DNA from: Neorhizobium vignae
GTDB taxonomy: Bacteria; Pseudomonadota; Alphaproteobacteria; Rhizobiales; Rhizobiaceae
Reading direction: 5' to 3'
Assembly (NCBI RefSeq): GCF_000732195.1
Contig: NZ_JNNU01000003.1
Span: 372,001 to 436,000 of the forward strand
DNA: 64,000 nt
In this document: piece by piece, positions 5,841 through 39,033 of the stretch
Position numbering within the stretch: the first letter of the stretch is position 1
Layout of the letters: each line of letters begins with the position of its first letter
Notes under the pieces: generated by a model
Databases searched by the model: none
What the model saw: only the letters and a program-made list of their open reading frames with translations
Told to the model about the DNA's origin: nothing
Position numbers and translations under genes: made by a program

Positions 5841-8508
5841 CAGGGAGCCAGCGGATCTGATCGCCGTGGCCATGCCTCTCTATGGTCACGCGGCGCTTGC
5901 CCTCGAGGCGATCGAATCGGTGCTTGCCTCGAATCCCGGCAACTGCCGTATTGTCATCGTCGTCTCTGTCGACGGCGATCCGCGGCATGAGACGTTCGAT
6001 CAGCTGCTGCTCTACGCCGCGGCCCATCCTTGCGTCCATGTCATATTCGGCCGGAACGCCGGCCCGGGCGGCGCACGCAATCGCGCCATCGATTTCGTCA
6101 TCGAGCATTTCCCGGAGGCGAAGGCGGTCTATTTCCTCGATGCCGACAACCGCATCCTTCCCGGCACGATCAAGACGCTTTACCAGCAGCTCGTGTCCAG
6201 TGGCTGCGGGTGGGTTTACACGAATATCGACACATTTTCGGTCAGTTGGCGCGCCCATTACGGCAATCGCTATTCGCGGCTGGTGCACTGCATCACCGAC
6301 AATATCTGTGATACGGGATCGATGATCTCGATCGAGGTTTTCAAGGACGGCGTCCGCTTCAATGACGACCGGCAGAACGGTTTCGAGGATTGGGAATTCT
6401 GGCTGTCCTGCATCGAGCACGGTTTCGTCGGCACCCCCTGCCACGACACCGTCTTCGAATACAGGCTGAGGGCGGAAAGCCGCTTCAAGGAGGCGAACCG
6501 CGACCGCGCCACGTCGGTCAGCTTCCTGCGCAAGCGTCACATGCCGTTGTTCCAGCGCCCGATGCTGGTGGATTTCGAGCATGAGGATTGCCCGCGCTAC
6601 CTGTTTGCGCGGACGGAGGATACGGCGATCTCCTTCTTCACCGATCCCACCAAGCCACCGACGATGCTTCGCCTCGACGACATCATCCCGGCCTTCTGGG
6701 GCAATATCGGCGAGCCGGACAATGAACATTTTCCGCCATTCCTGGTCGCCGGAAGCGGCGCGGCACTCGACCTTCTGCGGCGCTCGCGCATGCTGCCGAA
6801 CGTGCTTGCTCATCTCGAGCGCCTGAGCGAGGTGAGCAACGTCGTCTTCGTCCAGCTCGCCAACGATGCCGCCCAGCGCAAGATCGAGCCGGTCATCCAT
6901 GGGCCGGGCGCACAAAAAATCGGCCCGGCCGATCTTGTTTTCCTGTCGACTCGGATCGCCCAGGACGTGGTCCAGAACAATGCCGTGGACTGGTTCGCCT
7001 CGATCGCAAGCCAGCAGGTATGGCCGACATCGGCCGTTCTGAAAGTGCGGTTCCCTTTTCCAAGAAGCCTCCCGCGCCGCTCTCTCATCACGCCTCAGCA
7101 GGTGATGATCAATTGCCTCAACGCGATTGCCTCGAGCCCCCTCCGCGAGACGGCGGGCAGGCGGTGGACCTGGCGCCCCGCACGGCTCGTGCCCTATACC
7201 GATCTCCACAAGGCGCTACGCAAGGAGATCGGAGGATCGCCGGTCCTGCCGCTCGGACATAACGAGGGCAAGCGGACCGTGGCGCTGCTGGTGCCAAACG
7301 CCTCGTTCGGCGGAGCTGAAAAGGTCGTTTATGCTGCGGCCCGGGAGTTGAAGGCGGCCGGTTATGAAACCCACCTCTTCGTGCTCGGCACGTCGAGGAT
7401 GGACGTGATCGACGAATTCGATTCCAGCTTCGACTACATCCATTTCTGGGAGACGGGAATTCCGGCCTGGGGAGGATCCGGTTCCTTCCTGGGGCAGGAC
7501 TTCATCGCCGAGGAGCATTCGGTCGACTGGCAGGCGCTCAAAGGGCAGCTTTCCGGCTTCGACCTGGTCATCAACAACCACGTGATGGCCGTCCATCCCC
7601 TTATCGCGCGACTGCGCTCCGAAGGCACGCGCACGGCCTGTTATCTGCATGTCGTCGACAACACGGCCTTCAAGAGGCCCGCCGGTCAGCCCTTCGCGGC
7701 GATTGCCCACGAGCATTGCTACGATGCCTTCCTGACCTGCTCCGAACAGCTCAAGATCTATCTGCACAGTTACGGTGTCCCGCACGAAAAGGTCTTCGCC
7801 GTAGCGAACGGCGCAAGCTTCTCGGTGCCGCCCAAGGTCTTGGCGGAGGTTCTGGCCGTCAGGCGGATTGAGCGCAAGGATGATCGCTTGCGGATTCTTT
7901 ACATGGGCCGGTTTGACCAACAGAAGGGTATCGACAGGCTGGCGGCAGTGCTCACGGAATTGCGGGCCTCCAACGTCGCCTTTGACGGCCGGGCCATCGG
8001 AGGGGAAATTCTCGCCGATTCCACGGTCTCCTGGAGTGAACGGCTGAAGGACCTCGGCGTCGACGTGCGCCCGCCGGTCTTCGCGAGCAAGGATCTGATC
8101 AAGGCGCTGGGCTGGGCCGATGTTCTCCTCATGCCGTCACGCTGGGAGGGCGCGCCGCTGATGATCGCCGAGGCACAGCAACTCGGCTGCGTGCCCATCG
8201 CGACCGCGGTTGGCGCGGTGGACGAGCTCATTTGCGACGGCGAGGACGGCATACTCATCGACGCGGCTTCCGATCCTCAGATGGTAAGGGAGATGGCCCG
8301 AATTATTGAAGAGGTTGCGCGCAATCGCGGAAGACTTGCGCCGCTCATGGAGGGCTGCATCAGAACCGCCGCGCACCGGTCATGGACTTCCTCCTTCTCC
8401 GATTTCATCTCGTGGAGCGATCGGTCCGTGAAAAATTCGTCACTGTCCCGTGCCGCGATCTTTCGCGAGCAGGCGGCGGCAAACCCCGTGGTCGCGGCAG
8501 CTGGCTGA
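5830..8508 (+). CDS. Bifunctional glycosyltransferase (GT2-GT4 fusion)
   Basis: This 892-residue protein fuses two glycosyltransferases. Residues about 10-240 form a GT2 GT-A domain: AVAMPLYGHAALALEAIESV at the start, the NAGPGGARNRAI loop and YFLDADNR as the DxD-like metal site. Residues about 480-880 form a GT4 GT-B domain: LLVPNASFGGAEKVVYAAAREL, RILYMGRFDQQKGIDRL and WADVLLMPSRWEGAPLMIAEAQ. The middle segment is probably a linker. A single chain with two folds suggests successive addition of two sugars in one repeat unit. It overlaps the upstream gene by 11 bp and precedes the pyruvyl transferases by 39 bp. Confidence 0.88.
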   Translation: MSGNREPADLIAVAMPLYGHAALALEAIESVLASNPGNCRIVIVVSVDGDPRHETFDQLLLYAAAHPCVHVIFGRNAGPGGARNRAIDFVIEHFPEAKAVYFLDADNRILPGTIKTLYQQLVSSGCGWVYTNIDTFSVSWRAHYGNRYSRLVHCITDNICDTGSMISIEVFKDGVRFNDDRQNGFEDWEFWLSCIEHGFVGTPCHDTVFEYRLRAESRFKEANRDRATSVSFLRKRHMPLFQRPMLVDFEHEDCPRYLFARTEDTAISFFTDPTKPPTMLRLDDIIPAFWGNIGEPDNEHFPPFLVAGSGAALDLLRRSRMLPNVLAHLERLSEVSNVVFVQLANDAAQRKIEPVIHGPGAQKIGPADLVFLSTRIAQDVVQNNAVDWFASIASQQVWPTSAVLKVRFPFPRSLPRRSLITPQQVMINCLNAIASSPLRETAGRRWTWRPARLVPYTDLHKALRKEIGGSPVLPLGHNEGKRTVALLVPNASFGGAEKVVYAAARELKAAGYETHLFVLGTSRMDVIDEFDSSFDYIHFWETGIPAWGGSGSFLGQDFIAEEHSVDWQALKGQLSGFDLVINNHVMAVHPLIARLRSEGTRTACYLHVVDNTAFKRPAGQPFAAIAHEHCYDAFLTCSEQLKIYLHSYGVPHEKVFAVANGASFSVPPKVLAEVLAVRRIERKDDRLRILYMGRFDQQKGIDRLAAVLTELRASNVAFDGRAIGGEILADSTVSWSERLKDLGVDVRPPVFASKDLIKALGWADVLLMPSRWEGAPLMIAEAQQLGCVPIATAVGAVDELICDGEDGILIDAASDPQMVREMARIIEEVARNRGRLAPLMEGCIRTAAHRSWTSSFSDFISWSDRSVKNSSLSRAAIFREQAAANPVVAAAG

Positions 8509-28149: not shown

Positions 28150-28167
28150 TTGTCAAAACCTGGACAG

Positions 28168-28200
28168 GCCCGCGCCGGGAGACTGGCGCGGGCTTTTTTT
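28168..28200 (+). terminator. Intrinsic terminator after M28 peptidase gene
   Basis: GCCCGCGCC and GGCGCGGGC form a 9-bp GC-rich stem with an 8-nt loop, followed by seven T residues. It lies 18 bp after the stop codon and isolates the scavenging block from the next region. From here to 28483 I see no gene. Confidence 0.9.
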
Positions 28201-28483: not shown

Positions 28484-28512
28484 TTTAACGCTGTTTTGAC
28501 GCTGCTTTGACA
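28484..28512 (+). promoter_or_regulatory. Triple 11-bp-spaced direct repeat, SARP-type operator (site A)
   Basis: Heptamers TTTAACG, TTTGACG and TTTGACA start at 28484, 28495 and 28506, exactly 11 bp apart, so all lie on one face of the helix. Tandem heptamers at 11-bp steps are the known binding pattern of SARP and other OmpR-fold activators. The site is 44 bp upstream of the probable start of the SARP-like regulator gene, suggesting autoregulation. Sites B (33386) and C (37221) have the same spacing. Confidence 0.75.
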
Positions 28513-28555
28513 GCGGCGCGCTAGGGCAGGTTTGCGGTTTCCAAGGATGCTTTTT

Positions 28556-30508
28556 ATGCTTCAATTCGTCGATGGCCACAACGCTGACATGCGCTGCCGA
28601 ATCCCAGGCGCGCCTGTCGCGCTCTTGTCAAGGGCCACTTTTGTGTCAGACTGTCTGCTGGACGGGCAGCCCAGGTTCGATGAGATGATCGAGAGGGGCA
28701 CAATACGAGTTGGGCCAATGGATCGCATGGATGCAAAACATGCAGTGTTCCGGATGTACCTGCTTGGCCCGTTCAGTCTCGTTGACAGCAAGGGGAAATC
28801 TGCCACACCCCGGTCCCAGAAGGCCCAGGCAATTCTTGCGATGCTTGCTCTCTCTGCGCGGGGATCTCGCTCGCGGGTTTGGCTGAGAGACAAATTGTGG
28901 AGCGACCGGTCCGAGGATCAGGCGGCTGCCAGCCTAAGGCAGGCCCTGCTGGATATTCACAAAGCCCTGGGTTCGTCCCGCGATCTCATCATCGCCGATA
29001 AGAACACCGTGTGGCTGGACATGGACCGCATCGCGCTCGACACCGATGAGATGCTCCGCAGCGAGCGCGTGGTCGATCAGATCACCGACGAGCTGCTCGA
29101 AGGCATGGATATCCGCGATCCTGAATTCGAGGACTGGCTGACGGTCGAGAGACAGAACTGGTACCGACGCATCGAAGAAGGGCGCGTCGACGATGTGTTC
29201 GAACCTCGGCAGCAACCTCGCCGCGACGTCAGCACGCTATCGGCGCTCCTGCCTTTGACAGGCCTGCCTGACCAGCGCCCGACCAATATTCCCTCGGCAG
29301 CTGTGGGTGGTGATCCGGATAAGCCGCCGTCGCCGGACAATATTCAGTGGACCATCGCTCTCCAGCCGCCGATTGTCATCGGCGCCGGAGATGGGGGGCA
29401 GATCGCCGCATTGCAGTTTCAAAACCTGCTCGCCAAGGCGATCTTCGACGGATTGGGCCTCGGCATTACCGATCTTTCCTTCGATCCGCACCTTGGACAA
29501 CCAGATCGAAAGATGGGCCTTCCACTGTGCCTTCAACTGCGGCTGACCTTCGACGGCAGTCAGGTGCTGGTGGAACTGGCGATCAAGCATCTGCTCGACA
29601 ACCGGATCATGTGGCTTGGCAGCCGTATGATCGGGCGCACCCAGATGGAGCGGTCCGAATACGGGATCGCCGCGGCTCTGATCAGCCAGGCAATCGACCA
29701 GTTGTCGCTGTTTCAGGAGATGAGCGCCGGCGACGGTCGGCTGACCCGCGATGGTCTTTTCATCGATGCGGTCAATGCGATCTTCCGGCTTTCGAGAGGG
29801 GATCTCGAAAAAGCGGAAAAGCGGCTGCAGGAGCAGGTTCAATATCAGCCGCGAGCGTCTGCCTTCGCCTGGCTGTCCTTCATCCGCACATTCCAGGTCG
29901 GCCAGCGCTTTAGCGCGCTGGATGCGCATCTGATCGAAGAGGCCCAGGCCTATGCGCGAAAGGCTCTTGAACTCGATCCGAATAATTCCGTCTCCCTGGC
30001 GCTGGTCGGACATGTCCACTCTTTCCTGTTCCGGGAGTACGATTACGCCGCCGGTCTGTTCGAAAAGTCGATCCGTTTGAACCCGGCCTTGCCGCTGGGG
30101 TGGGATCTCTATGCCATGTTGCACTGCTATGCGGGGCAGCCGGAAAAGGCCAGTGCAATGGCGCGGTGGGTTCAGGAACTCGGCGTCTACAGCCCTCATA
30201 AATATTACTTCGATACGACGAAATGCATCAGCGCCGGGCTGGCGGGAGACCACGTGGCGGCAATAGCGGCAGGCGAGGATGCCCTGCATTCCCGGCCGAA
30301 CTTCAATAGCCTGTTGCGCTATCTCGCTTCCAGCCACGCTCACACGGGCAATTTGGAGGCCGCACGGCAATATGTGGAACGGCTTGATAAGGTTGAGAAC
30401 GGGTTTTCCATAACGTCGTTTCGCGGCACGGGTTATCCGTTGCTCAGTACGGGCGGTGGAAAGCTGTTGCTCGACGGCCTGATCAAGGCCGGCGCCAGAA
30501 TTCGCTAA
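28556..30508 (+). CDS. SARP-like transcriptional regulator (winged helix, BTAD-like and TPR regions)
   Basis: This is a 650-residue protein from the ATG at 28556, which has AAGGA 8 nt upstream; ATGs at 28718 and 28727 nearer the conserved domain lack a ribosome site. An OmpR/SARP-type winged helix spans about 67-137 (MYLLGPFSLVDSKGKS, LRDKLWSDRSEDQAAASLRQALLDIHKAL). A bacterial-activator-like helical part follows (EDWLTVERQNWYRR). After a proline-rich linker, the C-terminal half contains TPR-like repeats (AQAYARKALELDPNNSVSLALVGH, AGLFEKSIRLNPALPLGWDLY). SARP-type proteins activate secondary-metabolite or secretion loci. The 11-bp-period repeats at 28484, 33386 and 37221 fit its expected operator, so it probably drives this whole region. 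Confidence 0.82.
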   Translation: MLQFVDGHNADMRCRIPGAPVALLSRATFVSDCLLDGQPRFDEMIERGTIRVGPMDRMDAKHAVFRMYLLGPFSLVDSKGKSATPRSQKAQAILAMLALSARGSRSRVWLRDKLWSDRSEDQAAASLRQALLDIHKALGSSRDLIIADKNTVWLDMDRIALDTDEMLRSERVVDQITDELLEGMDIRDPEFEDWLTVERQNWYRRIEEGRVDDVFEPRQQPRRDVSTLSALLPLTGLPDQRPTNIPSAAVGGDPDKPPSPDNIQWTIALQPPIVIGAGDGGQIAALQFQNLLAKAIFDGLGLGITDLSFDPHLGQPDRKMGLPLCLQLRLTFDGSQVLVELAIKHLLDNRIMWLGSRMIGRTQMERSEYGIAAALISQAIDQLSLFQEMSAGDGRLTRDGLFIDAVNAIFRLSRGDLEKAEKRLQEQVQYQPRASAFAWLSFIRTFQVGQRFSALDAHLIEEAQAYARKALELDPNNSVSLALVGHVHSFLFREYDYAAGLFEKSIRLNPALPLGWDLYAMLHCYAGQPEKASAMARWVQELGVYSPHKYYFDTTKCISAGLAGDHVAAIAAGEDALHSRPNFNSLLRYLASSHAHTGNLEAARQYVERLDKVENGFSITSFRGTGYPLLSTGGGKLLLDGLIKAGARIR

Positions 30509-30547
30509 GGCAACGTTCACGATGATCTCATTTGGGGAGGCTGGGGC

Positions 30548-31570
30548 ATGGTAGGGGAAGCAAATTTGGGTCTGCAATCAAAGATTGTGCATTTTTTGAA
30601 TTCTTATAGATTTAGAGTTGAGCCTGATACGGTTCTCCCTTGCGAACCGAGGCCTGTCGAGGTGATTCCGGAGGTGGTGGAGCCGCCTCCCTCCGTTCCA
30701 CCTGCGCCTGCCCCTTTGTCCGAGGAAGGCCTATCCATAGACGAGCCTCCTTTGATGATGGCGACAATGGCAGCTGCCTCGGTCCTCAACAAGGGCGTTG
30801 CAAACAAGTCTGTGCTCAACAAGGCCACGCTGAACAAGAACAAGAATAAAAACAAAAATAAGAATAAGAACAAAAACAAGTCGACGATGGACGGCGCGAG
30901 TCTCGGCGTATCGCAGCTCATTCCGGCGTTCGAATTGCGCCGATTGCACCAGCAGCCATCGCGCAACGCGTTCACGGCCGCGCGCCGCTTTACGTGGGAA
31001 ATGCTCGACATCTCGCCACCACCCGGACCGGACTATACCCGACTGGAAGCGGCGGTGCTGCTTTCCATGCAGCGGCGCGATCGTGAGCGGGCGAGGCGAT
31101 TGCCTGATATCCAGGCCGAGGCGACCATTTCCGTGTCGGAATTTACCCGCGCCTTGTATATCGAGGACATTGGCGGATACGAACAGACCGAGGGCTTGTT
31201 TCAGGCGATTTTGACCGCCTGCGAATATGTCGGGCTTCTCTACAAGAGCCAGTTCAACAGGCTTCGGCCGAACCAGTTCGAATCCCTGTTGCGACCGCTC
31301 CTGCCCGTGCCGGTCCACGAATCCTATCCCAGCAACCATGCCTTCCAGTGCTTTTCGATCGTATTCGCTTTTTCGACGATCCTGCCCGAACATCCGGCAA
31401 CGGACGAACTCGCCCGTATCGCGCAGAACGTCGCTGAAAATCGCGAATGGGCAGGCCTGCATTATCCGAGCGATACGCAAGCTGGCCGGGACCTGGCACG
31501 GCGTTTCGCTCCGTACCTCCATGACGCGTTCGGGCCGCTTTTCCAGGCGGTCCACGACGAATGGGTTTGA
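30548..31570 (+). CDS. Vanadium haloperoxidase/PAP2-fold protein with proline-rich and (Asn-Lys)n N-terminus
   Basis: This is a 340-residue protein. The C-terminal half keeps the three motifs of the vanadate/phosphate-binding PAP2-haloperoxidase fold: KX6RP starting at Lys233 (KSQFNRLRP), PSNH ending at His264 (canonical PSGH), and NRX5HX3D with Arg299, His305 and Asp309 (canonical SRX5HX3D). The active site therefore looks intact. There is no signal peptide or membrane-helix set, so a soluble haloperoxidase or acid phosphatase is likelier than a membrane lipid phosphatase. The first 115 residues are unusual: a proline/glutamate-rich stretch, then xLNK-type repeats ending in eight Asn-Lys pairs (96-111). 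It follows the SARP-like gene by 39 bp and precedes the subtilase by 33 bp. Confidence 0.8.
   Translation: MVGEANLGLQSKIVHFLNSYRFRVEPDTVLPCEPRPVEVIPEVVEPPPSVPPAPAPLSEEGLSIDEPPLMMATMAAASVLNKGVANKSVLNKATLNKNKNKNKNKNKNKNKSTMDGASLGVSQLIPAFELRRLHQQPSRNAFTAARRFTWEMLDISPPPGPDYTRLEAAVLLSMQRRDRERARRLPDIQAEATISVSEFTRALYIEDIGGYEQTEGLFQAILTACEYVGLLYKSQFNRLRPNQFESLLRPLLPVPVHESYPSNHAFQCFSIVFAFSTILPEHPATDELARIAQNVAENREWAGLHYPSDTQAGRDLARRFAPYLHDAFGPLFQAVHDEWV
30833..30880 (+). repeat. In-frame (AAY AAR)8 repeat encoding eight Asn-Lys pairs
   Basis: Forty-eight bases consist only of AAC/AAT and AAG/AAA codons, giving eight consecutive Asn-Lys pairs. It follows looser five-residue repeats carrying NK (VLNKG, VANKS, VLNKA, TLNK). 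Codon choice varies between units, so this is not a recent perfect slippage product, yet the six-base unit could still expand or contract in frame. It is far more AT-rich than its surroundings. Confidence 0.95.
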
Positions 31571-31603
31571 GGCCGATTTTATTCTTTGAGGAGAACGAAA
31601 ATC

Positions 31604-33301
31604 ATGACGTCCGCCGACATGGAAGCGCCGCAAGCCGCACCGATGAACTACTACTATCTCTGGCATCTGACGGCATTGGGCGTCATCGACGCCGACTACG
31701 GTTCGCCGCCGATCGTGCCGCCATCCCAGAACGAGACTGCGGCGCGTCCCGTCCCTGACCCGGAGATCGCGGGAAGTGTCTGGGATACCATTAAGGCTGC
31801 CGGTTCTATCCATCCCGCCCGCGTGGCGCTGATCGATGTCGGGATAGCGCCCGATCATCCGAATTTGGCGACCCGGCTTGACCGTGAAGCCTCGATCGAC
31901 CTTACGAGCCATCGCTACGGTTCGCGCGTCGCCGAAATCCTCGATGGGACCACATCCTTCGACCGTGAAGAAAAGCAGGCGTTCTTCGCGGGGCTTGATA
32001 TCGCGCCGTTGGGAAATCTCGGCCTATCCAACGATGATCGGGAATATCTCGACGACATTGTCGCGGAATACGCGGCTTCACAGGGCGTCGTCCGACGGCT
32101 GTTCCACCCGGAGTCGCTTTTTGCATCCCATGGCACGTGCTGTGCCGGCCTGATTGCCGGCGAACCGGCCGTGGCGACCCAGGACGGAGGTCCCTCGGCT
32201 CTCCCCGAGGGCGCATTCTATGGTGAGGACGGCACGCCTTGCCCGAGCTCCAATCGCAACGTTCTTCCCTATTTCGGTGTCGATCCCTTCTCCCGGGTGA
32301 TCTCGATCAGGACGTCTTTCGAGGATGATGTCCTGCAGTTCATCGCCGCATTTCTCTACGCCTATCATCAGCGCGTCGATGTAATCGTCCTGCCACGCGG
32401 CTTGCCGGACCCGAAGCGCAGCCGGGTCATTCCGAAGAACGAATTGAAGGCCGATCTCGAACGCTGGAAAAACCAAATCGCCGCCGATCTGTTCGCCCGT
32501 ATTTCGTTGGCGGAGCAGGGGGGCGCCGAGCTGGAGCCAAAAGCCCCGCAAAAGGGATCAAACCCCGATAGGGCGTGGCATATCCTCAAACAGCTCATCG
32601 TCGCCATCAGCCATCATATTCCAATCGTTTGTGCCGCGGGAAACAGCGGCGAAAGCCAGCTGATCTATCCGGCCAACCTCGCTGCCGATGACAACGGGAT
32701 AATTGCTGTCGGAGCGGTCACGGTCGAGGGTTACCGCTCGGGATACAGCAATTACGGAGAGGGGCTCACGGTCGTCTCGCCATCCGATGACGGCGAAGTC
32801 TTCAATCGTCATCAGTTGCGCGTCGACCGCCTGTCTCCTTTCGCCGCGCAACATGACCATGAGGCATTCGGGCTGCGGGAATATAGATATTCTCACTTCT
32901 CACTGCTGACGACAGACCTTCCCGGCGCATTCGGTTACGACCGGGGGGCGGATCCATGGTCGTCCATGGTGCCGTCCGCAGCCAATCCCGGCATTGGGGG
33001 AGGTTACTACACCACGTTCGGCGGCACGTCGGGCGCCTCCGCACAGGTGGGCGGCATATGCGCGTTGATCCAGCGGGCACATAAGACTCGGAACGGTGGC
33101 GATGCACGGCTCTCCGGCCCTTCGGTCAAGTCAATCCTCCAGTCCACCGCCCGGCTGGATGCGATGGTAGCGCCTGGAATACGCGCACTGACCGCCGACT
33201 GCATGAATGCGGATGGCGAAGACGCTCTCGATATGAGCTATTTCTTCGGGTTCGGCCTGCCCGATGTCCCGGCAGCTATCGCCGCCGTATTGTCTCCGTG
33301 A
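31604..33301 (+). CDS. Cytoplasmic subtilisin-like serine protease (S8 family)
   Basis: This is a 565-residue S8 protease with an intact triad: Asp78 in RVALIDVGI, His176 in SHGTCCAGLIAG and Ser476 in FGGTSGASAQVGG, plus the oxyanion Asn347 in AAGNSGE. There is no signal peptide or obvious propeptide, so it should act in the cytoplasm, like processing proteases of peptide-modification clusters such as cyanobactin PatA/PatG. Two inserts (about 95-165 and 405-455) are longer than in secreted subtilisins. The ATG at 31604 follows GAGGAG. It sits after the haloperoxidase-like gene and is followed 30 bp later by a strong terminator. Confidence 0.9.
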   Translation: MTSADMEAPQAAPMNYYYLWHLTALGVIDADYGSPPIVPPSQNETAARPVPDPEIAGSVWDTIKAAGSIHPARVALIDVGIAPDHPNLATRLDREASIDLTSHRYGSRVAEILDGTTSFDREEKQAFFAGLDIAPLGNLGLSNDDREYLDDIVAEYAASQGVVRRLFHPESLFASHGTCCAGLIAGEPAVATQDGGPSALPEGAFYGEDGTPCPSSNRNVLPYFGVDPFSRVISIRTSFEDDVLQFIAAFLYAYHQRVDVIVLPRGLPDPKRSRVIPKNELKADLERWKNQIAADLFARISLAEQGGAELEPKAPQKGSNPDRAWHILKQLIVAISHHIPIVCAAGNSGESQLIYPANLAADDNGIIAVGAVTVEGYRSGYSNYGEGLTVVSPSDDGEVFNRHQLRVDRLSPFAAQHDHEAFGLREYRYSHFSLLTTDLPGAFGYDRGADPWSSMVPSAANPGIGGGYYTTFGGTSGASAQVGGICALIQRAHKTRNGGDARLSGPSVKSILQSTARLDAMVAPGIRALTADCMNADGEDALDMSYFFGFGLPDVPAAIAAVLSP

Positions 33302-33331
33302 GCCGATCTTCGGCGAGGATCACCAGGATTG

Positions 33332-33359
33332 AAGCCCCCTCAAAAAAGGGGGCTTTTTT
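33332..33359 (+). terminator. Intrinsic terminator after subtilase gene
   Basis: AAGCCCCCT and AGGGGGCTT form a 9-bp stem with a 6-nt loop, and the stem runs into TTTTTT. It closes the SARP-haloperoxidase-subtilase unit. The next unit begins with the direct-repeat site at 33386. Confidence 0.92.
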
Positions 33360-33385
33360 GTTGCAAAGCTTCCTTTTCACGGAAG

Positions 33386-33414
33386 TTTAACGCGGTGCTG
33401 GCGTGCCGATGACG
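33386..33414 (+). promoter_or_regulatory. Triple 11-bp-spaced direct repeat, SARP-type operator (site B)
   Basis: Heptamers TTTAACG, GCTGGCG and GATGACG start at 33386, 33397 and 33408, exactly 11 bp apart. They share the core T(A/G)(A/G)CG with sites A and C. The flank ACGGAAG just upstream is nearly identical to that of site C. It lies between a terminator and the 33569 gene, leaving a leader of about 150 nt. It should drive the three-gene operon 33569-36704. Confidence 0.75.
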
Positions 33415-33568
33415 GGTCCACAAGAAGCTCCTCTCAACGGAAGACTAGACGAGATCGTGGTTTCAAGCCGGAGGGCCGTCGGTACGGCCGGTCTGGCGGC
33501 AACTAATCTTCCCTGAAGTGGCGCACCTCATGACGAGGTTCGAAGCGTCCGGGTGAGGAGAGCTTAAG

Positions 33569-35017
33569 ATGTCTGCTTATCAGAGCGAGCCGTTGGCGGA
33601 TCAGGCGAGAGCTTTGCTCCAGCGCAATCCGCTTTTGTCAAAGTCCGGTTTCGTGAATGCGGCCGCGACGGGCAATATGCTGAAACAGCGACCCCGTTAT
33701 GCCCGAATTCTTGCCGCCGCTTCCGAGCTGCCGGGTTGCGGAGAAAGGGTCGAGGCGTTGGCCCGTTATTTCCCGGGCCTTGCGGATGGCGGATATCATG
33801 ATGCCGACGCGTTCCTGCCCACCGCAGCCTTCCTGCCCGTGCGAAGCGACCCCTACCGGTCTCCCGCGCTGGCGGCTTGGATGGATGAGCTTCAGCGGGG
33901 GCTGGAAAGCTACATCGACGGCGCCAGTTCTGACGTTGTGGACTACAGCCTTCAGCCTGATCTTGTGGCTGAAGACCTTGCGCTCGAACGCCGTCCTGCC
34001 CGCCGGCTTGCCTGTGGTATCGGTCTCGTCCTGATCGACAGTCTGGAAGCGAGCCGTACCATGCGCAAGCGCATCGCTCCTTGCCTCCCGTCCGATCCCG
34101 GCTTCGAACAGGCCCAGATGAGCGATCACGACCTGGACCGGATCGACGATCATCTCACCAAGGCAATCGAATTCATTTCGACCGTCGATCCCGGTGGCTA
34201 TCAACGGCTCACTGCAGCCCTTCACACACTTTATGTCGGAACCCGGCCCGGCGCGATAAGCTCGTTCTCCAGTTCCGGCGACCTGCCGGGGAGTGCCGTC
34301 GTGGTCCTGTCCCAGGAAAAGCTTGACGCCGAAGACTATCCGGCGACTGCCGCTGAGCTTCTGCGCGAAGTGGGGCAGGTCCTGCTGCGGCTGTATATGG
34401 CGGCTGCGCCGTTATCGCTGCCCGCCGAGGCGCGATACCTATCGCCATACACACACAGTTTACAGACGCTCGAAAGCATCCTGCATACGGCCTACGCCAT
34501 TCCCTGGGAGTGCGCCGTCCGCATCGCATGCTTGCCTTTCAGAGCACCGCATGAGCACCGCGCGCGGGAAGCAGCTTTTGTCATTGCGTATGCTGCCCGC
34601 CTAATTCCGCTCATCGATATCGCCCGCGAGGGGATCGAGCGTCTGGGCGGCGATGTTCTTCTCGACCTCCGGGACATCGCCGTCATTCCATCCTGGGGCG
34701 CCGCAATCCTGGCGCTCATCGACCGGCTTCTGGAATGCGAGCCGCCGGCTCGGCGCAAGGCCTATTATGCCCAGCGCCTGTGTGTTGTGGATCGTCAGGC
34801 CTGGGATCTCGGGCAGATGCTTCTGCGGGGGGAGCAGCCCATCGACCCGAGATTGGGCCGCCCGATGCTGCAGGGCAGCGGCGATGGTCTGAGCCTCTGG
34901 TACGATGGCCGGCTCCATATGATCCGCAAAGCCGCCAGACAGCCTCCCGATGAGCTTTTCATCCAAGATGTCGCGCTGGCGGGAACGTCAAGTTCGACGG
35001 TGATGGAGCATGCGTGA
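33569..35017 (+). CDS. HExxH-type peptide hydroxylase-like protein with degenerate metal motif
   Basis: This 482-residue protein has no signal peptide or membrane span. The segment 230-320 matches by eye the architecture of the HExxH-motif family of putative peptide-modifying enzymes (TIGR04267 type): SSFSSSGDLPGSAVVVL, then LLREVGQVLLRLYMAAAPL, then YLSPYTHSLQTLESILHTAYAI, where family members read like SFSxxLPG, HExxHxKL and YxPWRxDPRPxxGxLHxxY. Here the HExxH position reads REVGQ (266-270): Glu is kept but both metal-binding His are lost. It may be a pseudoenzyme or substrate-binding scaffold, or use other ligands. GAGGAG precedes the ATG by 8 nt. It is the first gene of the operon with ThiF and methyltransferase genes. 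The family assignment is my pattern reading, not a search. Confidence 0.6.
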   Translation: MSAYQSEPLADQARALLQRNPLLSKSGFVNAAATGNMLKQRPRYARILAAASELPGCGERVEALARYFPGLADGGYHDADAFLPTAAFLPVRSDPYRSPALAAWMDELQRGLESYIDGASSDVVDYSLQPDLVAEDLALERRPARRLACGIGLVLIDSLEASRTMRKRIAPCLPSDPGFEQAQMSDHDLDRIDDHLTKAIEFISTVDPGGYQRLTAALHTLYVGTRPGAISSFSSSGDLPGSAVVVLSQEKLDAEDYPATAAELLREVGQVLLRLYMAAAPLSLPAEARYLSPYTHSLQTLESILHTAYAIPWECAVRIACLPFRAPHEHRAREAAFVIAYAARLIPLIDIAREGIERLGGDVLLDLRDIAVIPSWGAAILALIDRLLECEPPARRKAYYAQRLCVVDRQAWDLGQMLLRGEQPIDPRLGRPMLQGSGDGLSLWYDGRLHMIRKAARQPPDELFIQDVALAGTSSSTVMEHA

Positions 35018-35079
35018 TGGGTGCGCGGTTCCTGTGAATTCTCAGCAGTTCCCGACCGGTTCAAGCAAGGTAAACGATC

Positions 35080-35796
35080 ATGAGAGCCTTCGAATATCAT
35101 GCCGATCTGTTTGATGTCATTCACGACACGGATTTCATAATTCTCGGATGCGGAGGCCTCGGCTCCCAGATCGCCTCCCAGCTTGCAGCGCTTGGGGCTC
35201 GCAATTTCTTCCTGGTGGATGGTGACCGCATCGAAGAAAGCAGCCAAAAACGGATGACCTCGGCGACGGCGGAGGATATCGGTCGATTAAAGGGCGACCG
35301 GTTGGCAACTTATCTCGCCTCCCGCTTTTCTGCTGCGGTCGCAATCATGACCCAGTTCGCCGATGGGGCGGAAGCCGCCCGGCTCATTCTGGCCCGGACA
35401 CGGAAGCCTTTCCTGATACTTGCGGAGGACGATGTCTCCCTGGCCCGCCAATTCCTGGCGGAATATCACGCGACGGCGCCAGAGCCTCCGCCTTACCTGC
35501 ATGTCGGCCAGATCGGGCCGTTTTCGGTCGCCGGGCCCCTGGTGGCGCAGCCGGACGATGCCTGCCCTTTCTGCTGCTCGACATTGCCAGCATCGGTCGA
35601 CGCAGAGATCGCAGCGACGCCTTCGCCGGCCGATAACGCCCTGATTGCTTGTTTTGCGGTTTCGCAGATCGCCATCGAACGCCTTACCCGCCGCAGTTCA
35701 TTGCGCGGCCATCGCTGGCTCTTCAATCCGGCCATGGGCCACGCCTCACTCCACCCGGTTTCCAGAAGCCTCGATTGCAAGGTGTGTCAGCCATGA
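35080..35796 (+). CDS. ThiF/MoeB-type E1-like adenylating enzyme
   Basis: This is a 238-residue E1-like protein. GCGGLG (23-28) is the nucleotide loop. VDGDRIEESSQKR continues as the usual acidic strand and Arg-finger region, and DIGRLKGDR holds the conserved Asp-Ile-Gly...Lys. Cys162-Pro-Phe-Cys165 and Cys233-Lys-Val-Cys236 form a MoeB-like Cys4 zinc site. I see no E2, JAB or ubiquitin-like gene nearby, so it differs from known E1-containing defence systems. In ribosomal peptide pathways such enzymes adenylate a peptide C-terminus (MccB) or act as cyclodehydratase partners. Its stop overlaps the methyltransferase ATG (ATGA), so the two are coupled. Confidence 0.85.
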   Translation: MRAFEYHADLFDVIHDTDFIILGCGGLGSQIASQLAALGARNFFLVDGDRIEESSQKRMTSATAEDIGRLKGDRLATYLASRFSAAVAIMTQFADGAEAARLILARTRKPFLILAEDDVSLARQFLAEYHATAPEPPPYLHVGQIGPFSVAGPLVAQPDDACPFCCSTLPASVDAEIAATPSPADNALIACFAVSQIAIERLTRRSSLRGHRWLFNPAMGHASLHPVSRSLDCKVCQP

Positions 35797-36704
35797 AGAA
35801 CCTCTCTTCCCAGGACTACTATTTCTCGATCGTCGCAGCTTTGAAACAGAAGAACGTGCCGCCTGGCGGGGAAGCAATGATGGAGGCGATTTTTGCCGCC
35901 TTTCCCGGTGGCGCGCGCAAGATTGTCGACTTCGGCTGCAATACCGGCTGGATCAGCCGCAGGGTTGCCCGGGCTTTTCCGCGAGCCGAAGTGATCGGCG
36001 TGGACAAAAATCCGGCGATAATCGAGGTCGCGCGAGAAGTCGCACGGCTGGAGGACTCGACGGCAGTATTTTCCTGCGTCGACATTGCCGCGCTCCCAGG
36101 CCTCATATCGGAGGCAGATGTCATTATCTGCGGAGGAAGTGCTGCCTTTTTCGAGTGGCCGCTGGATCTTTATCTCATGGTTGCGAGGTGCCTGAGGCCC
36201 GGCGGTCTCCTGATGGATTGCCACTATGTCTACGACGCCGATGCACCTCCTTCTCTTCGCCAGGAGGAGAAAGAAACGTTCGGCCTGGGGTGGATGCCTG
36301 ACGGGCTGAACGACATCGTGTCCGTTCACGAAGATGCGGGATTGAGCGTCGCGAAGATCAAGCGGCTGCCTCGGTTCCATTTCGAAGACAGCGCTGCCGC
36401 CCGGTTGGCGCGCGATATCCTGCACACGGTTCCAAAGATGCAGGAACTGGCGGAAGCGATGGCGAAACGCCGCCGGTTGATCAGCAAACTGGCGCATCAC
36501 CGACACCCCTATCTGCTGGTAGCGCGCGCCGGCGAACAGACCGTCGCGGAAGGCGTGACGCACCGCAAACGCTCAGAAGTCCCGATGGCGTTCGAAGCGG
36601 TCACGTCCAATCGCCATGCTTCCGTTCGCCGTCCGACCGTGATCGGATGCAGCTTTTGGAGCGAGGCCGCAAAGGCGGTCGGCCTGCGAAGCGCATATTC
36701 ATAA
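35793..36704 (+). CDS. Class I SAM-dependent methyltransferase
   Basis: This is a 303-residue protein with a Rossmann methyltransferase domain: motif I VDFGCNTG (45-52), acidic residue after strand 2 in EVIGVDKNP, motif near VFSCVDIA, and motif III in ARCLRPGGLLMDCHYV. About 60 residues at the C-terminus are outside the usual fold and look variable. The ATG overlaps the ThiF stop by 4 bp; a longer in-frame ORF from 35649 would run through the ThiF gene and is rejected. It probably methylates a product or intermediate made by the ThiF/HExxH-like pair. The substrate is unknown. Confidence 0.82.
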   Translation: MKNLSSQDYYFSIVAALKQKNVPPGGEAMMEAIFAAFPGGARKIVDFGCNTGWISRRVARAFPRAEVIGVDKNPAIIEVAREVARLEDSTAVFSCVDIAALPGLISEADVIICGGSAAFFEWPLDLYLMVARCLRPGGLLMDCHYVYDADAPPSLRQEEKETFGLGWMPDGLNDIVSVHEDAGLSVAKIKRLPRFHFEDSAAARLARDILHTVPKMQELAEAMAKRRRLISKLAHHRHPYLLVARAGEQTVAEGVTHRKRSEVPMAFEAVTSNRHASVRRPTVIGCSFWSEAAKAVGLRSAYS

Positions 36705-37220
36705 AACCGGGATCATCTCCCACGCATTCCAGAAGACAGCAGGGGCGCTCAGACAATGTCCGCTCGAGAGAGCCAAGCTTTTACGACCGAAATGTTGCGA
36801 TAAAATTCTCGATCTTTGGCCACGGTTGCTCCGTTAGTCACGTCGGAAGAGCCTTCGATCGAAGGTCCGGTGCGCGTTCCAATTCAGTTGTAGCGACGGA
36901 TTTCCCATAACATCCGGCTCTCCGGCACCACCTGACACAATCCCAATATCAAACGCCTCACATTCTGCACGAGATAGTCTCGGGAAGCCTTTAGGCATCA
37001 CGAGAGATCCGGGCGTTATCTGTAGGTATAATCTAAAGTGATCTGAGTTGATGTTATATTTACGATAATAGTATTGAAATCTTTCGACGAAAATCTTTCG
37101 GTAATATATGCAAAATTTGCGATATCTTGTCAGAATATCTTGTTTCACTCCAGGGTGCACGAAATTCTAGTTGGTGACCGCTCTCCATTGTCTTCTCGCC
37201 ACCGCAATTTTTTACGGAAA
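36705..37220. other. Gene-poor AT-rich interval
   Basis: Between the methyltransferase gene and site C I find no convincing gene. The portion 36960-37160 is markedly AT-rich against the surrounding GC-rich DNA and contains TATAAT at 37031-37036. A minus-strand frame at 36834-37160 has no ribosome site and a composition rich in Tyr/Arg/Phe that looks accidental. The stretch could hold an RNA, a recombination scar or imported DNA. I see no insertion-sequence ends, integrase or tRNA remnant. Confidence 0.5.
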
Positions 37221-37249
37221 TTTAACGCCGCGCTGGCGGGGCGATGACG
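37221..37249 (+). promoter_or_regulatory. Triple 11-bp-spaced direct repeat, SARP-type operator (site C)
   Basis: Heptamers TTTAACG, GCTGGCG and GATGACG start at 37221, 37232 and 37243. All three heptamers are identical to site B (33386-33414), and the ACGGAA flank is shared too, while the 4-nt spacers differ. That is the pattern expected of protein-contact sites. It lies 319 bp before the first of two small secreted-protein genes, with no other gene between. Confidence 0.75.
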
Positions 37250-37567
37250 GGTTCGAGAGATAGTCTCATCACGAAAGACGGTGGAGCACACGGTCCGGCT
37301 GGCTGGCATTGGTCGTCCCCGGCAGCACTCAACCGATCGGCAGGGAATATCCGCTCACAACGCTTCAAGCCGGCGGGGCAGATCCTCATGCCTACTTTCG
37401 TTTCCGAAGGACGAAGAGCTCACGGGAGCTTCGGCAACACCGTTCAAGGGGCCGAGAGGAGATCCTCCAGTCATTTGGAAAATCGATGACAGCGACTGCT
37501 GTCTCGCAGACTTAAAATCAAACACGACGTCCGCGGAAGCGGGTTTCGCCAAACAATGGAGTGAAAA

Positions 37568-37804
37568 ATGACTGTGCCTATAGAGAAGATTGCGTTCCTC
37601 GTCGCCGCGGCGTGCATGGCCTCCTTTGCCGGACACGTTCTGGCCTATGACGGCCAGCGGTTGACTTCGGGAAACGAGGTTTCGTTCGCCGTCCCGGCGG
37701 ATGCCGCCAAAACCGAGGCAAAGGCCGATACCACGCGTGACGTGGCGCAGGTCCGTTCCCCGACCCGTCGCGACAACCGTCTTACCGGCGACGAACGGCA
37801 GTAG
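37568..37804 (+). CDS. Small secreted protein of unknown function (78 aa)
   Basis: The N-terminus is a clear Sec signal (MTVPIEKIAFLVAAACMASF...GHVLA, cleavage before YDGQ at about 26). The mature peptide of about 52 residues is charged and polar, ending RRDNRLTGDERQ, with no cysteines and no recognised domain. GGAG lies 6 nt before the ATG. It is the first gene downstream of operator-like site C, so it is probably switched on with the modification genes. It could be a secreted product, a substrate or an accessory factor. Confidence 0.65.
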   Translation: MTVPIEKIAFLVAAACMASFAGHVLAYDGQRLTSGNEVSFAVPADAAKTEAKADTTRDVAQVRSPTRRDNRLTGDERQ

Positions 37805-37894
37805 AGCCCAGAAGCAAGCATCCACAGCTCATTCAAGACATCGATCGGTTGGGTCGCACCAGAAGCCGATCAGGCAAAACAAGGAACAACGACT

Positions 37895-38161
37895 ATGAAA
37901 AACTCTGTCATCTCCACCATCCTCGCCACCCTGATGGCATCCACCTTTGCAGGCGGCAGTGCCTTTGCGCAGGAAGGCGAATATTATGAGGGCGCCTCTC
38001 CCGACTCCGGCCATCTGGCGGTCACGGCGGATTCACTCGGCATCCCCTCGGTCACCCGTTATGGCTATCCGCAGCCGAAGCGCGATCGGCGTGTCGATAT
38101 TCCGGCGTCTCAGACGATCGACAGCGGTGACTATTACGACGGCCTAATGCGCGCCCGCTAA
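37895..38161 (+). CDS. Small secreted protein with EYYEG/DYYDG motifs (88 aa)
   Basis: There is a Sec signal (cleavage after AFA, about residue 25, leaving QEGEYYEG). The mature 63-residue part starts with EYYEGASPDSG and ends with SGDYYDGLMRAR, so related acidic Tyr-Tyr motifs flank a Pro/Arg-rich centre (RYGYPQPKRDRR). There are no cysteines. AAGGA lies 9 nt upstream. It follows the other small secreted gene by 90 bp and is closed by a terminator, so the two likely share a transcript. The function is unknown. Confidence 0.7.
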   Translation: MKNSVISTILATLMASTFAGGSAFAQEGEYYEGASPDSGHLAVTADSLGIPSVTRYGYPQPKRDRRVDIPASQTIDSGDYYDGLMRAR

Positions 38162-38194
38162 TACCGAAGGTTCGAATATAAGGTCCGATTATAG

Positions 38195-38219
38195 AGCGCC
38201 GGGATTCCCCGGCGCTTTT
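38195..38219 (+). terminator. Intrinsic terminator after small secreted-protein genes
   Basis: AGCGCCGGG and CCCGGCGCT form a perfect 9-bp stem with a 4-nt loop, followed by TTTT. It ends the unit that starts at site C and marks the right edge of the modification-like region. Confidence 0.88.
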
Positions 38220-38356
38220 CCTGTGGCTTCGCTACCCTATAAGGCCGCAGAATTGCTCACTTGGAAGCGTTCGCCTATCTCGGTGACCTTCGATGAAGTC
38301 CCTCCGTCTCGCGCTCCGGTCGCTGAAAACCAATGATATTGATTTTCACGCCCAAT

Positions 38357-38386
38357 GGTAATACCTTTGATGCGTCCGGTATTACA
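38357..38386. promoter_or_regulatory. Inverted repeat before toxin-antitoxin operon
   Basis: GGTAATACC (38357-38365) and GGTATTACA (38378-38386) are inverted copies matching at 8 of 9 positions. They end 12 bp before the antitoxin ATG. AbrB-type antitoxins usually autorepress by binding paired repeats overlapping their promoter, so this is the likely operator. Confidence 0.6.
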
Positions 38387-38398
38387 AGGTCACGGAAA

Positions 38399-38632
38399 AT
38401 GACGACAACGGTCACAGCAAAAGGGCAAGTCACGATTCCGAAGGCGGTTCGAGACCTGCTCGGGATCGTTCCCGGCAGCAAGGTCGATTTCCATCGAGCT
38501 GCCGATGGGAGCGTTGTTCTGACGAGGGCTGACAAGAAGCAGCCGGCGAGCCGTTTCGAAAGACTTCGTGGCCATGCCGGGGAAGGCCTTGATACCGATG
38601 CCATCATGGCGATGACACGTGGCGAAGCGTGA
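38399..38632 (+). CDS. vapB: AbrB/VapB-type antitoxin
   Basis: This is a 77-residue protein. Residues 1-45 are a swapped-hairpin AbrB/SpoVT DNA-binding domain (TTTVTAKGQVTIPKAVRDLLGI, then GSKVDFHRAADGSVVL). The C-terminal tail (RFERLRGHAGEGLDTDAIMAMTRGE) is the usual toxin-wrapping segment. The ATG at 38399 directly opens the conserved domain; an in-frame start at 38333 would add an unrelated N-terminus. It overlaps the toxin gene by 4 bp (GTGA). Confidence 0.9.
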   Translation: MTTTVTAKGQVTIPKAVRDLLGIVPGSKVDFHRAADGSVVLTRADKKQPASRFERLRGHAGEGLDTDAIMAMTRGEA

Positions 38633-39033
38633 CGCTCGTTGACACAAATGTACTGCTCGATCTTGTAACCAATGATCCGATCTGGGCTGACTGGTCCGTA
38701 GCGCAGCTGGAAGCTGCCAGCCTCGCAGGGCCGTTGTTGATCAACGATGTAATCTATGCAGAACTCGCTGTTCGTTATGGACGCATCGAAGAACTTGATG
38801 CGTTTATCGAAGAAGCCGGCTTAGAGCTTACTTCGTTGCCGCGCGCGGCCCTGTTTCTCGCCGGAAAAGTATTCGGGCAATACCGCGGGGCCGGCGGTTC
38901 GCGCACGGGTGTGTTACCGGACTTTTTCATAGGTGCGCATGCAGCCGTGTGGAAACTGCCCTTGCTGACGCGAGACATCGGCCGTTATCGGACCTACTTC
39001 CCGACAGTTGAGCTGATCACGCCGGATTCGTGA
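38629..39033 (+). CDS. vapC: PIN-domain ribonuclease toxin (VapC type)
   Basis: This is a 134-residue PIN nuclease. Acidic metal ligands are visible in VDTNVLLD (Asp near 5), in DVIYAELAVRY (Glu near 45) and in LPDFFIGAHAA followed by LLTRDIGRYRTYFP (Asp near 99 and 117). It starts at GTG 38629, overlapping the antitoxin stop, as in most VapBC operons. VapC toxins cut tRNA or rRNA when freed from the antitoxin. This pair may stabilise the replicon or region. Confidence 0.9.
   Translation: MTLVDTNVLLDLVTNDPIWADWSVAQLEAASLAGPLLINDVIYAELAVRYGRIEELDAFIEEAGLELTSLPRAALFLAGKVFGQYRGAGGSRTGVLPDFFIGAHAAVWKLPLLTRDIGRYRTYFPTVELITPDS

Follow-up and report, generated by a model that had tools for sequence, protein, structure and literature searches.

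Does a compact gene cassette in Neorhizobium vignae, which carries two enzyme families familiar from ribosomal peptide maturation, still modify a peptide, or have its genes been kept for something else? The cassette lies in a stretch of 64,000 nucleotides (contig NZ_JNNU01000003.1, positions 372,001 to 436,000 of the forward strand; hereafter the window, in whose numbering positions are given). Six intact open reading frames (ORFs) run in the same direction on the plus strand from 28547 to 36704, encoding in order a TPR/SARP-like regulator, a PAP2-fold protein, an S8 subtilase, a HExxH-family protein (HEx), a ThiF protein and a methyltransferase (MT), and two small ORFs, sm1 and sm2, follow at 37568-38161 (Table 1). 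A reading made from the sequence alone had described these six genes and two small secreted proteins as a SARP-controlled set that modifies a peptide or protein; the inventory is largely correct: the frames are intact, the six genes have family matches and both small proteins have N-termini that by eye resemble signal peptides. Our view of its function differs. We consider it probable that the cassette is a reduced, disarmed descendant of a cluster for a ribosomally synthesised and post-translationally modified peptide (RiPP) like that of Rhizobium sp. BK602, operating by the whole mechanism set out below; on the best reading, a regulator-phosphatase-protease module took in RiPP enzymes, two of which it still retains, with HEx probably a pseudoenzyme.

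The link to ribosomal peptides suggested by the sequence-only reading finds its support, as regards origin, in the BK602 locus (L011, which begins inside the SARP gene). Besides SARP, PAP2 and S8 it carries a radical SAM/SPASM protein, two precursor-like proteins of 110 and 107 residues, a TIGR04267 protein with an intact HEAGH motif (60.3 bits), a SpeD-like protein, a methyltransferase, two further small ORFs, a 327-residue ThiF, a double methyltransferase and a GNAT protein, and an operator of the type found before HEx stands upstream of its radical SAM gene. The five best NCBIfam models for the radical SAM/SPASM protein are all peptide maturases, with none of the 25 models shown reaching its cut-off, and the methyltransferase is closest to a RiPP methyltransferase model (104 bits against a cut-off of 175). 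Both precursor-like proteins weakly match the Os1348/NHLP precursor clan (NF038399), with E 0.0013 and 0.018 and scores that stay under the cut-off of 40 bits; the window cluster and the other loci searched hold no relative of these two proteins. The locus thus looks like a complete RiPP cluster, the precursors being called from their position and the weak NHLP match. It resembles the pfl cluster, as given in the main text of PMC12636437 (which uses neither the term 'Rhizobi' nor 'degenerate'), in having an intact HEAGH protein beside NHLP-like precursors and a GNAT protein. The two further small ORFs (L011 9190-9670) share a C-terminal IGDLVAN and 50% identity over 42 residues, and are possible additional precursors or partner peptides.

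Evidence for descent of the window cassette from such a cluster comes from its ThiF gene, whose product starts MRAFEYHADLFDVIH, resembling the VNALEYRADLYDVIH with which the BK602 methyltransferase opens, before the ThiF core follows. At the DNA level 35090-35125 and L011 8488-8523 share 86% identity, and 35120-35242 matches L011 10002-10124. Of 21 Neorhizobium loci, among which some strains are represented more than once, 18 have this joint, and none of 35 Rhizobium/Sinorhizobium loci does; in the remaining three Neorhizobium loci (L003, L010 and L035) the ThiF part alone matches. The Neorhizobium ancestor thus had a methyltransferase gene of this type (MT2) and lost about 1.5 kb here. By inference, the radical SAM and precursor genes were also there in that ancestor. 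The same deletion removed about 100 N-terminal residues of the BK602 ThiF protein. E1-like ThiF proteins of the TOMM/ocin type have an N-terminal leader-binding region; the window ThiF domain is similar to these TOMM partners in a weak C-terminal match to TIGR03882 (E 0.011, below cut-off) and in paired cysteines seen by eye, but it lacks the residues removed by the deletion, and no YcaO is found among the families matched in the window. The window MT in turn matches only the first half of the BK602 double methyltransferase. In several Rhizobium loci a conserved 73-residue ORF lies directly 3' of ThiF (L033 17397-17618; core LTITEALRDPLIAIVMRADGV) and is followed by a DUF982 gene; viewed as a precursor candidate, the R. 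leguminosarum protein has no family match better than E 0.14.

HEx itself belongs to the aKG-HExxH peptide hydroxylases (TIGR04267/IPR026337, the family of PflC, PosC, BpmH and the radical-SAM-fused type), scoring 44.6 bits against a cut-off of 40. The earlier label of HExxH-like protein therefore stands for the family but not for the motif, which reads LREVGQ: both His ligands are gone, the metal site has probably been lost with them, and HEx is a probable pseudoenzyme. The window differs from the known hydroxylase systems also in showing no precursor, in having no MNIO among the families matched and in its SARP, PAP2 and subtilase neighbours. None of ten full-length Neorhizobium copies keeps HExxH (the window has REVGQ and the nine others either REAGH or REVGH), and a frameshifted copy in N. 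galegae VafX2 (L036) has GEAGH. Among 27 Rhizobium copies the motif is intact in seven (HEAGH in six including BK602, HEMGH in one) and broken in 20 (HEAGN 11, HQAGH five, HEAAN two, HAAGN one, REASH one). Across the broken copies of Neorhizobium and Rhizobium the substitutions differ, the first His being changed to Arg, the Glu to Gln or Ala, and the second His to Asn or Gln. Fitch parsimony requires only two changes between intact and broken motifs; a losses-only reading of the drawn tree (topology only) requires at least four events (first His to Arg in Neorhizobium and again in L076, Glu to Gln, second His to Asn). A profile of HEx finds no solved structure at E up to 1.

HEx nevertheless evolves as a constrained protein. 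Omega, given as Nei-Gojobori medians over ten Neorhizobium loci (eight for MT) and nine Rhizobium/Sinorhizobium loci (eight for SARP and PAP2), is in Neorhizobium 0.061 for SARP, 0.088 for PAP2 and 0.086 for S8, and 0.207 for HEx, 0.182 for ThiF, 0.207 for MT, 0.302 for sm1 and 0.326 for sm2; the corresponding Rhizobium/Sinorhizobium values are 0.145, 0.123 and 0.090 for SARP, PAP2 and S8, 0.264 for HEx and 0.447 for ThiF. Along HEx in eight loci pN/pS ranges from 0.06, in the most conserved 40-codon stretch, to 0.46 (0.49 in a two-codon tail), with 0.24 overall. All ten full-length Neorhizobium copies are free of internal stops, and a gene of this length evolving neutrally in a simple simulation keeps its frame open at 0.2 substitutions per site in 0.2% of 500 runs. 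As all the Neorhizobium copies seen are without the first His, their divergence postdates that loss, if the loss was shared. These values speak for selection on HEx without its classical metal site, weaker than that on the SARP-PAP2-S8 core. That the cassette's genes are kept by selection points to a new job.

The cassette's coherence is evident from its distribution. HEx is found in three genomes of the 199-genome family sample, which all belong to the window's genus and include its own genome, in 11 of 57 genomes of that genus (one a fragment, G772), in 27 of 148 Rhizobium genomes (one a partial match, G754) and in 68 plasmid records (62 Rhizobium, five Neorhizobium, one Sinorhizobium). S8, searched at E 1e-60, occurs in the same 27 of 148 Rhizobium genomes and in five of the 199 family genomes, two of these from a further genus; at E 1e-40 it is seen in 70 plasmid records. 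S8, HEx and ThiF are adjacent in all 26 Rhizobium loci besides BK602, and SARP and PAP2 are present in 15 of the 16 Rhizobium/Sinorhizobium loci checked. In the further genus SARP-PAP2-S8 (L110) or PAP2-S8 (L109, with no SARP match) occurs without HEx or ThiF, and the L110 genome in the family sample gave no HEx match. The neighbours of the cassette differ between Neorhizobium, R. leguminosarum, Sinorhizobium B11 and strain Gr12/7, so the cassette seems to have moved as a unit. That the genes are tied together, as had been proposed, is borne out by this linkage and by operators unique in the genome; independent scattering of the genes was not found, given the 26 linked loci and the shared occurrence of HEx and S8 in 27 of 148 genomes. 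In R. leguminosarum Gr12/7 (L034) there is no SARP match, only the second half of PAP2 is found, and the cassette lies near conjugation genes (TraA).

Operators 2 and 3 (sites 33375 and 37210) read TTTNACG-4-TTTNACG-4-NCTGGCG-4-GATGACG, and operator 1 (28484) comprises three TTTNACG units with the same 11-bp period. The four-repeat pattern has two exact matches in the window and none in 100 shuffles, and even with up to three mismatches those two sites are the only ones in the whole 6.34-Mb genome. The three-repeat pattern of the SARP promoter with up to one mismatch matches once in the 6.34-Mb genome, at the SARP site; with up to two mismatches it matches once in the window, against 3 of 100 shuffles that contain a match, and a looser three-unit pattern additionally matches window position 8444 on the minus strand, which we take as chance. 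The three matching operators of the sequence-only reading are real. An operator is present at the HEx promoter (in BK602 the radical SAM promoter) in 21 of 21 scanned loci of Neorhizobium, Rhizobium and Sinorhizobium, as well as in six further Rhizobium regions, and TTTGACGCTGCTTTGAC is found upstream of the SARP gene not only in the window but in four of four Rhizobium/Sinorhizobium loci inspected. It is not upstream of the SARP gene in L110, and neither L109 nor L110 has an operator of this type. By eye, a GATAGT/AATAGT-like hexamer lies about 9 bp 3' of the last repeat in BK602, in nine Rhizobium/Sinorhizobium loci and at window operator 3, and the Neorhizobium HEx promoter has GAAGCT at this position.

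PMC10936776 describes SARP sites as repeats spaced by 11 or 22 bp, the final one lying 8 bp from the -10 element, and the 11-bp spacing of the direct repeats at the presumed target promoters recalls the Streptomyces SARP regulons (AfsR and others) treated there. Here, by contrast, the host is an alphaproteobacterium, the repeats are of TTTNACG type in 3 to 5 copies, and no Pfam SARP domain is detected. The SARP label rests on the operators and on three orthologues annotated in their records as 'SARP family transcriptional regulator' (a fourth is a 'hypothetical protein'). A Pfam search at E up to 10 lists neither a DNA-binding nor a BTAD domain for the protein, and bases 28700-29150 give only chance-level PDB matches (E 0.68). 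The SARP-type operator system described here, from an alphaproteobacterium, is unusually clean.

Five distinct solved-structure sequences match the PAP2 protein at E up to 0.1, all of them acid phosphatases, the best being 7f18 over 107 residues (profile, E 6e-11). Its earlier assignment as a haloperoxidase is not supported, no solved haloperoxidase being among the sequence matches at E up to 0.1. The window protein resembles the class A acid phosphatases (PAP2 fold) in this profile match but differs from them in lacking an evident signal peptide and in a long linker with Asn-Lys repeats, which as had been noted are real: they occur, with variable length, in nine of nine aligned sequences (the window and eight relatives) and in L110. 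Relatives of PAP2 at E 1e-20 occur in three genomes of other families among 297. The Asn-Lys dipeptides (window 30833-30880; PAP2 at L110 8612-9580) vary in copy number between species and occur in a genus without HEx; this region is a possible slippage-prone linker. The S8 protein has a Peptidase_S8 domain (E 9e-20) with D, H and S motifs present by eye.

In the mechanism we favour, the SARP-like activator would bind the 11-bp-phased repeats and switch on three promoters, those of its own operon (SARP, PAP2, S8), of a tailoring operon (HEx, ThiF, MT) and, in Neorhizobium, of sm1/sm2. SARP-PAP2-S8 would be the older core of the system, and the tailoring operon would derive from a BK602-like RiPP cluster. 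A single deletion in Neorhizobium joined the methyltransferase start to the ThiF core, and the radical SAM gene and precursors would also have been lost. HEx, which has lost its iron ligands yet stays under purifying selection, and ThiF would no longer modify a cognate peptide; HEx, presumably non-catalytic, and ThiF, possibly still adenylating, would instead bind a protein on which the cytoplasmic subtilase and the PAP2 phosphatase act. The broader proposition, that rhizobia have repeatedly made the RiPP hydroxylase a selected pseudoenzyme in a SARP-controlled subtilase/PAP2 pathway with an E1-like protein and no peptide product, we put forward only tentatively, inclining somewhat against it.

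Several findings weigh against descent from a BK602-like cluster followed by disarming and reuse. The full cluster is seen in one genome only, BK602, or 1 of the 27 Rhizobium genomes with HEx; the scar proves an ancestral MT2 gene and no other, and the radical SAM and precursor genes could have been gained in BK602. Six of the 26 Rhizobium copies besides BK602 keep HExxH with no BK602-type precursor in wider regions (L037, L112-L116), and may be active on another substrate. HEx and ThiF have omega values two to three times those of the core, and ThiF is relaxed in Rhizobium at 0.45, which slow decay would fit too; Neorhizobium sp. EC2-8 (L035) is without most of HEx while keeping operators, ThiF, sm1 and sm2; the core module in L109 and L110 may be regulated otherwise, as no such operator is seen there; and the AlphaFold2 models of HEx (mean pLDDT 46.5) and PAP2 (34.8) are too poor to use. 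Plain decay would have the RiPP operon slowly lost in Neorhizobium and Rhizobium, functionless and carried behind a useful SARP-PAP2-S8 operon. The raised omega of HEx, ThiF and MT would suit this, as would the MT that is not detected in L009 and L010, the loss of most of HEx in EC2-8 (where SARP, PAP2 and S8 each align in two pieces), the second ThiF cysteine pair that the alignment shows missing in R. johnstonii 3841, the fragment in G772, and the VafX2 copy, in which several frames, that of SARP among them, are broken, perhaps through sequencing error. Yet within Neorhizobium, where every full-length copy is without the first His, HEx retains the low pN/pS given above, overall and in its best 40-codon stretch, no full-length copy has an internal stop, the operator before HEx is kept, and S8 and HEx occupy the same 27 Rhizobium genomes, so that we regard decay as rather unlikely.

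Modification of a peptide by the set in this genome, as had been proposed, is not supported. Neither the BK602 precursors nor the BK602 radical SAM gene has a relative in the window cluster, and HEx is without both His ligands; the other Rhizobium loci searched contain no precursor relative either. The second BK602 precursor has no match in plasmids and none in the window's own genome at E 0.1; among 40 genomes of the genus, two gave a weak match each (E 0.0096 and 0.0985). The single radical SAM match in the own genome is weak (E 5e-5) and on another contig, and the BK602 radical SAM protein as query has matches at E 0.001 in 151 of 297 genomes from the order, the best at 33% identity, which we read as general radical SAM relatives. 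A blastn search of 33301-33570 and 36500-37560 reveals no radical SAM or precursor remnant, the operator aside; we attribute to chance a weak opposite-strand match within the L011 HEx gene (E 0.003). A precursor unrelated to the BK602 type could still be present in the window genome. Active modification might use a HEx with another metal arrangement, or ThiF and MT alone, with sm1/sm2 or the PAP2 Asn-Lys repeats as substrates; sm1 and sm2 do lie under operator 3 and accompany the cassette in Neorhizobium, and HExxH is intact in the seven Rhizobium copies. But sm1 and sm2 are unmatched in the Rhizobium loci examined, have signal-like rather than NHLP-like N-termini and persist in EC2-8 despite the loss of most of HEx, while the repeats occur in L110 without HEx, and REVGQ lacks both ligands; we judge this improbable. 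We give slightly less credence again to the opposite direction, in which the ancestor was a small SARP-PAP2-S8-HEx-ThiF cassette to which BK602 added radical SAM, precursor and other RiPP genes. The restriction of the radical SAM and precursor genes to BK602 and the scarcity of matches to the second precursor speak for it, but the Neorhizobium scar holds the MT2 start, the first half of the double methyltransferase is common to Neorhizobium and BK602, and an S8 tree rooted on L110 (topology only) puts Neorhizobium and BK602 across its split, so that genes shared by them are ancestral.

If the cassette is indeed a disarmed RiPP descendant, rhizobia, which are soil bacteria that fix nitrogen, offer a natural series from an apparently complete cluster (BK602) through an intact motif without known substrate to disarmed but selected versions, in which the fate of RiPP enzymes after precursor loss becomes directly testable. 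The SARP-PAP2-S8 core is conserved on many rhizobial plasmids; searching by title or the start of the abstract, with subscription journals largely uncovered, we found no published study of the cassette or of the function of this core. To that extent the system is, as first supposed, undescribed, but its HExxH, NHLP-like and radical SAM parts fall into known RiPP enzyme families.

Table 1. Features of the cassette in the N. vignae window.
Feature	Position	Strand	Basis or remark
Operator 1	28484..28511	+	three 11-bp-phased TTTNACG repeats, upstream of SARP-like gene
SARP-like/TPR regulator	28547..30508	+	start uncertain: 28547 or 28556
Soluble PAP2-fold protein, Asn-Lys repeat linker	30548..31570	+	PF01569, E 5e-7
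S8 subtilase, no evident signal peptide	31604..33301	+	PF00082, E 9e-20
Intrinsic terminator, 3' of S8 gene	33331..33356	+	terminator scan
Operator 2	33375..33414	+	four 11-bp-phased repeats, upstream of HEx
HEx, TIGR04267 member with REVGQ in place of the motif, probable pseudoenzyme	33569..35017	+	
Deletion scar, methyltransferase start (BK602 MT2) in frame with ThiF core	35080..35125	+	
ThiF/E1-like core	35080..35796	+	PF00899, E 1.5e-14
Class I SAM methyltransferase	35793..36704	+	family search and comparison with BK602
Operator 3	37210..37249	+	four 11-bp-phased repeats, upstream of sm1/sm2
sm1, small secreted-looking orphan protein	37568..37804	+	
sm2, small secreted-looking orphan protein	37895..38161	+	

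Neither sm1 nor sm2 has a Pfam or NCBIfam match at E up to 1, and in the plasmid collection each is found in five records, all Neorhizobium. The terminator scan returns strong sites at 28166-28195, 3' of the upstream gene, and at 33331-33356. Of the three strong terminators first proposed, the latter holds and the former belongs behind the upstream gene; the hairpin visible near 38196 has only four Ts and was not returned by the scan, and the 12 terminator-like sites of the region are no excess over shuffles (9.8, sd 3.3). An anti-phage role was considered and dropped, as PADLOC gave only general matches (E1-E2 models for ThiF, a weak subtilase and 'mad2' for the methyltransferase). Adjoining the cassette, at 38333-39033, an AbrB/MazE-like small protein and then a PIN-like protein of 134 residues form what by eye is a VapBC-type toxin-antitoxin pair.

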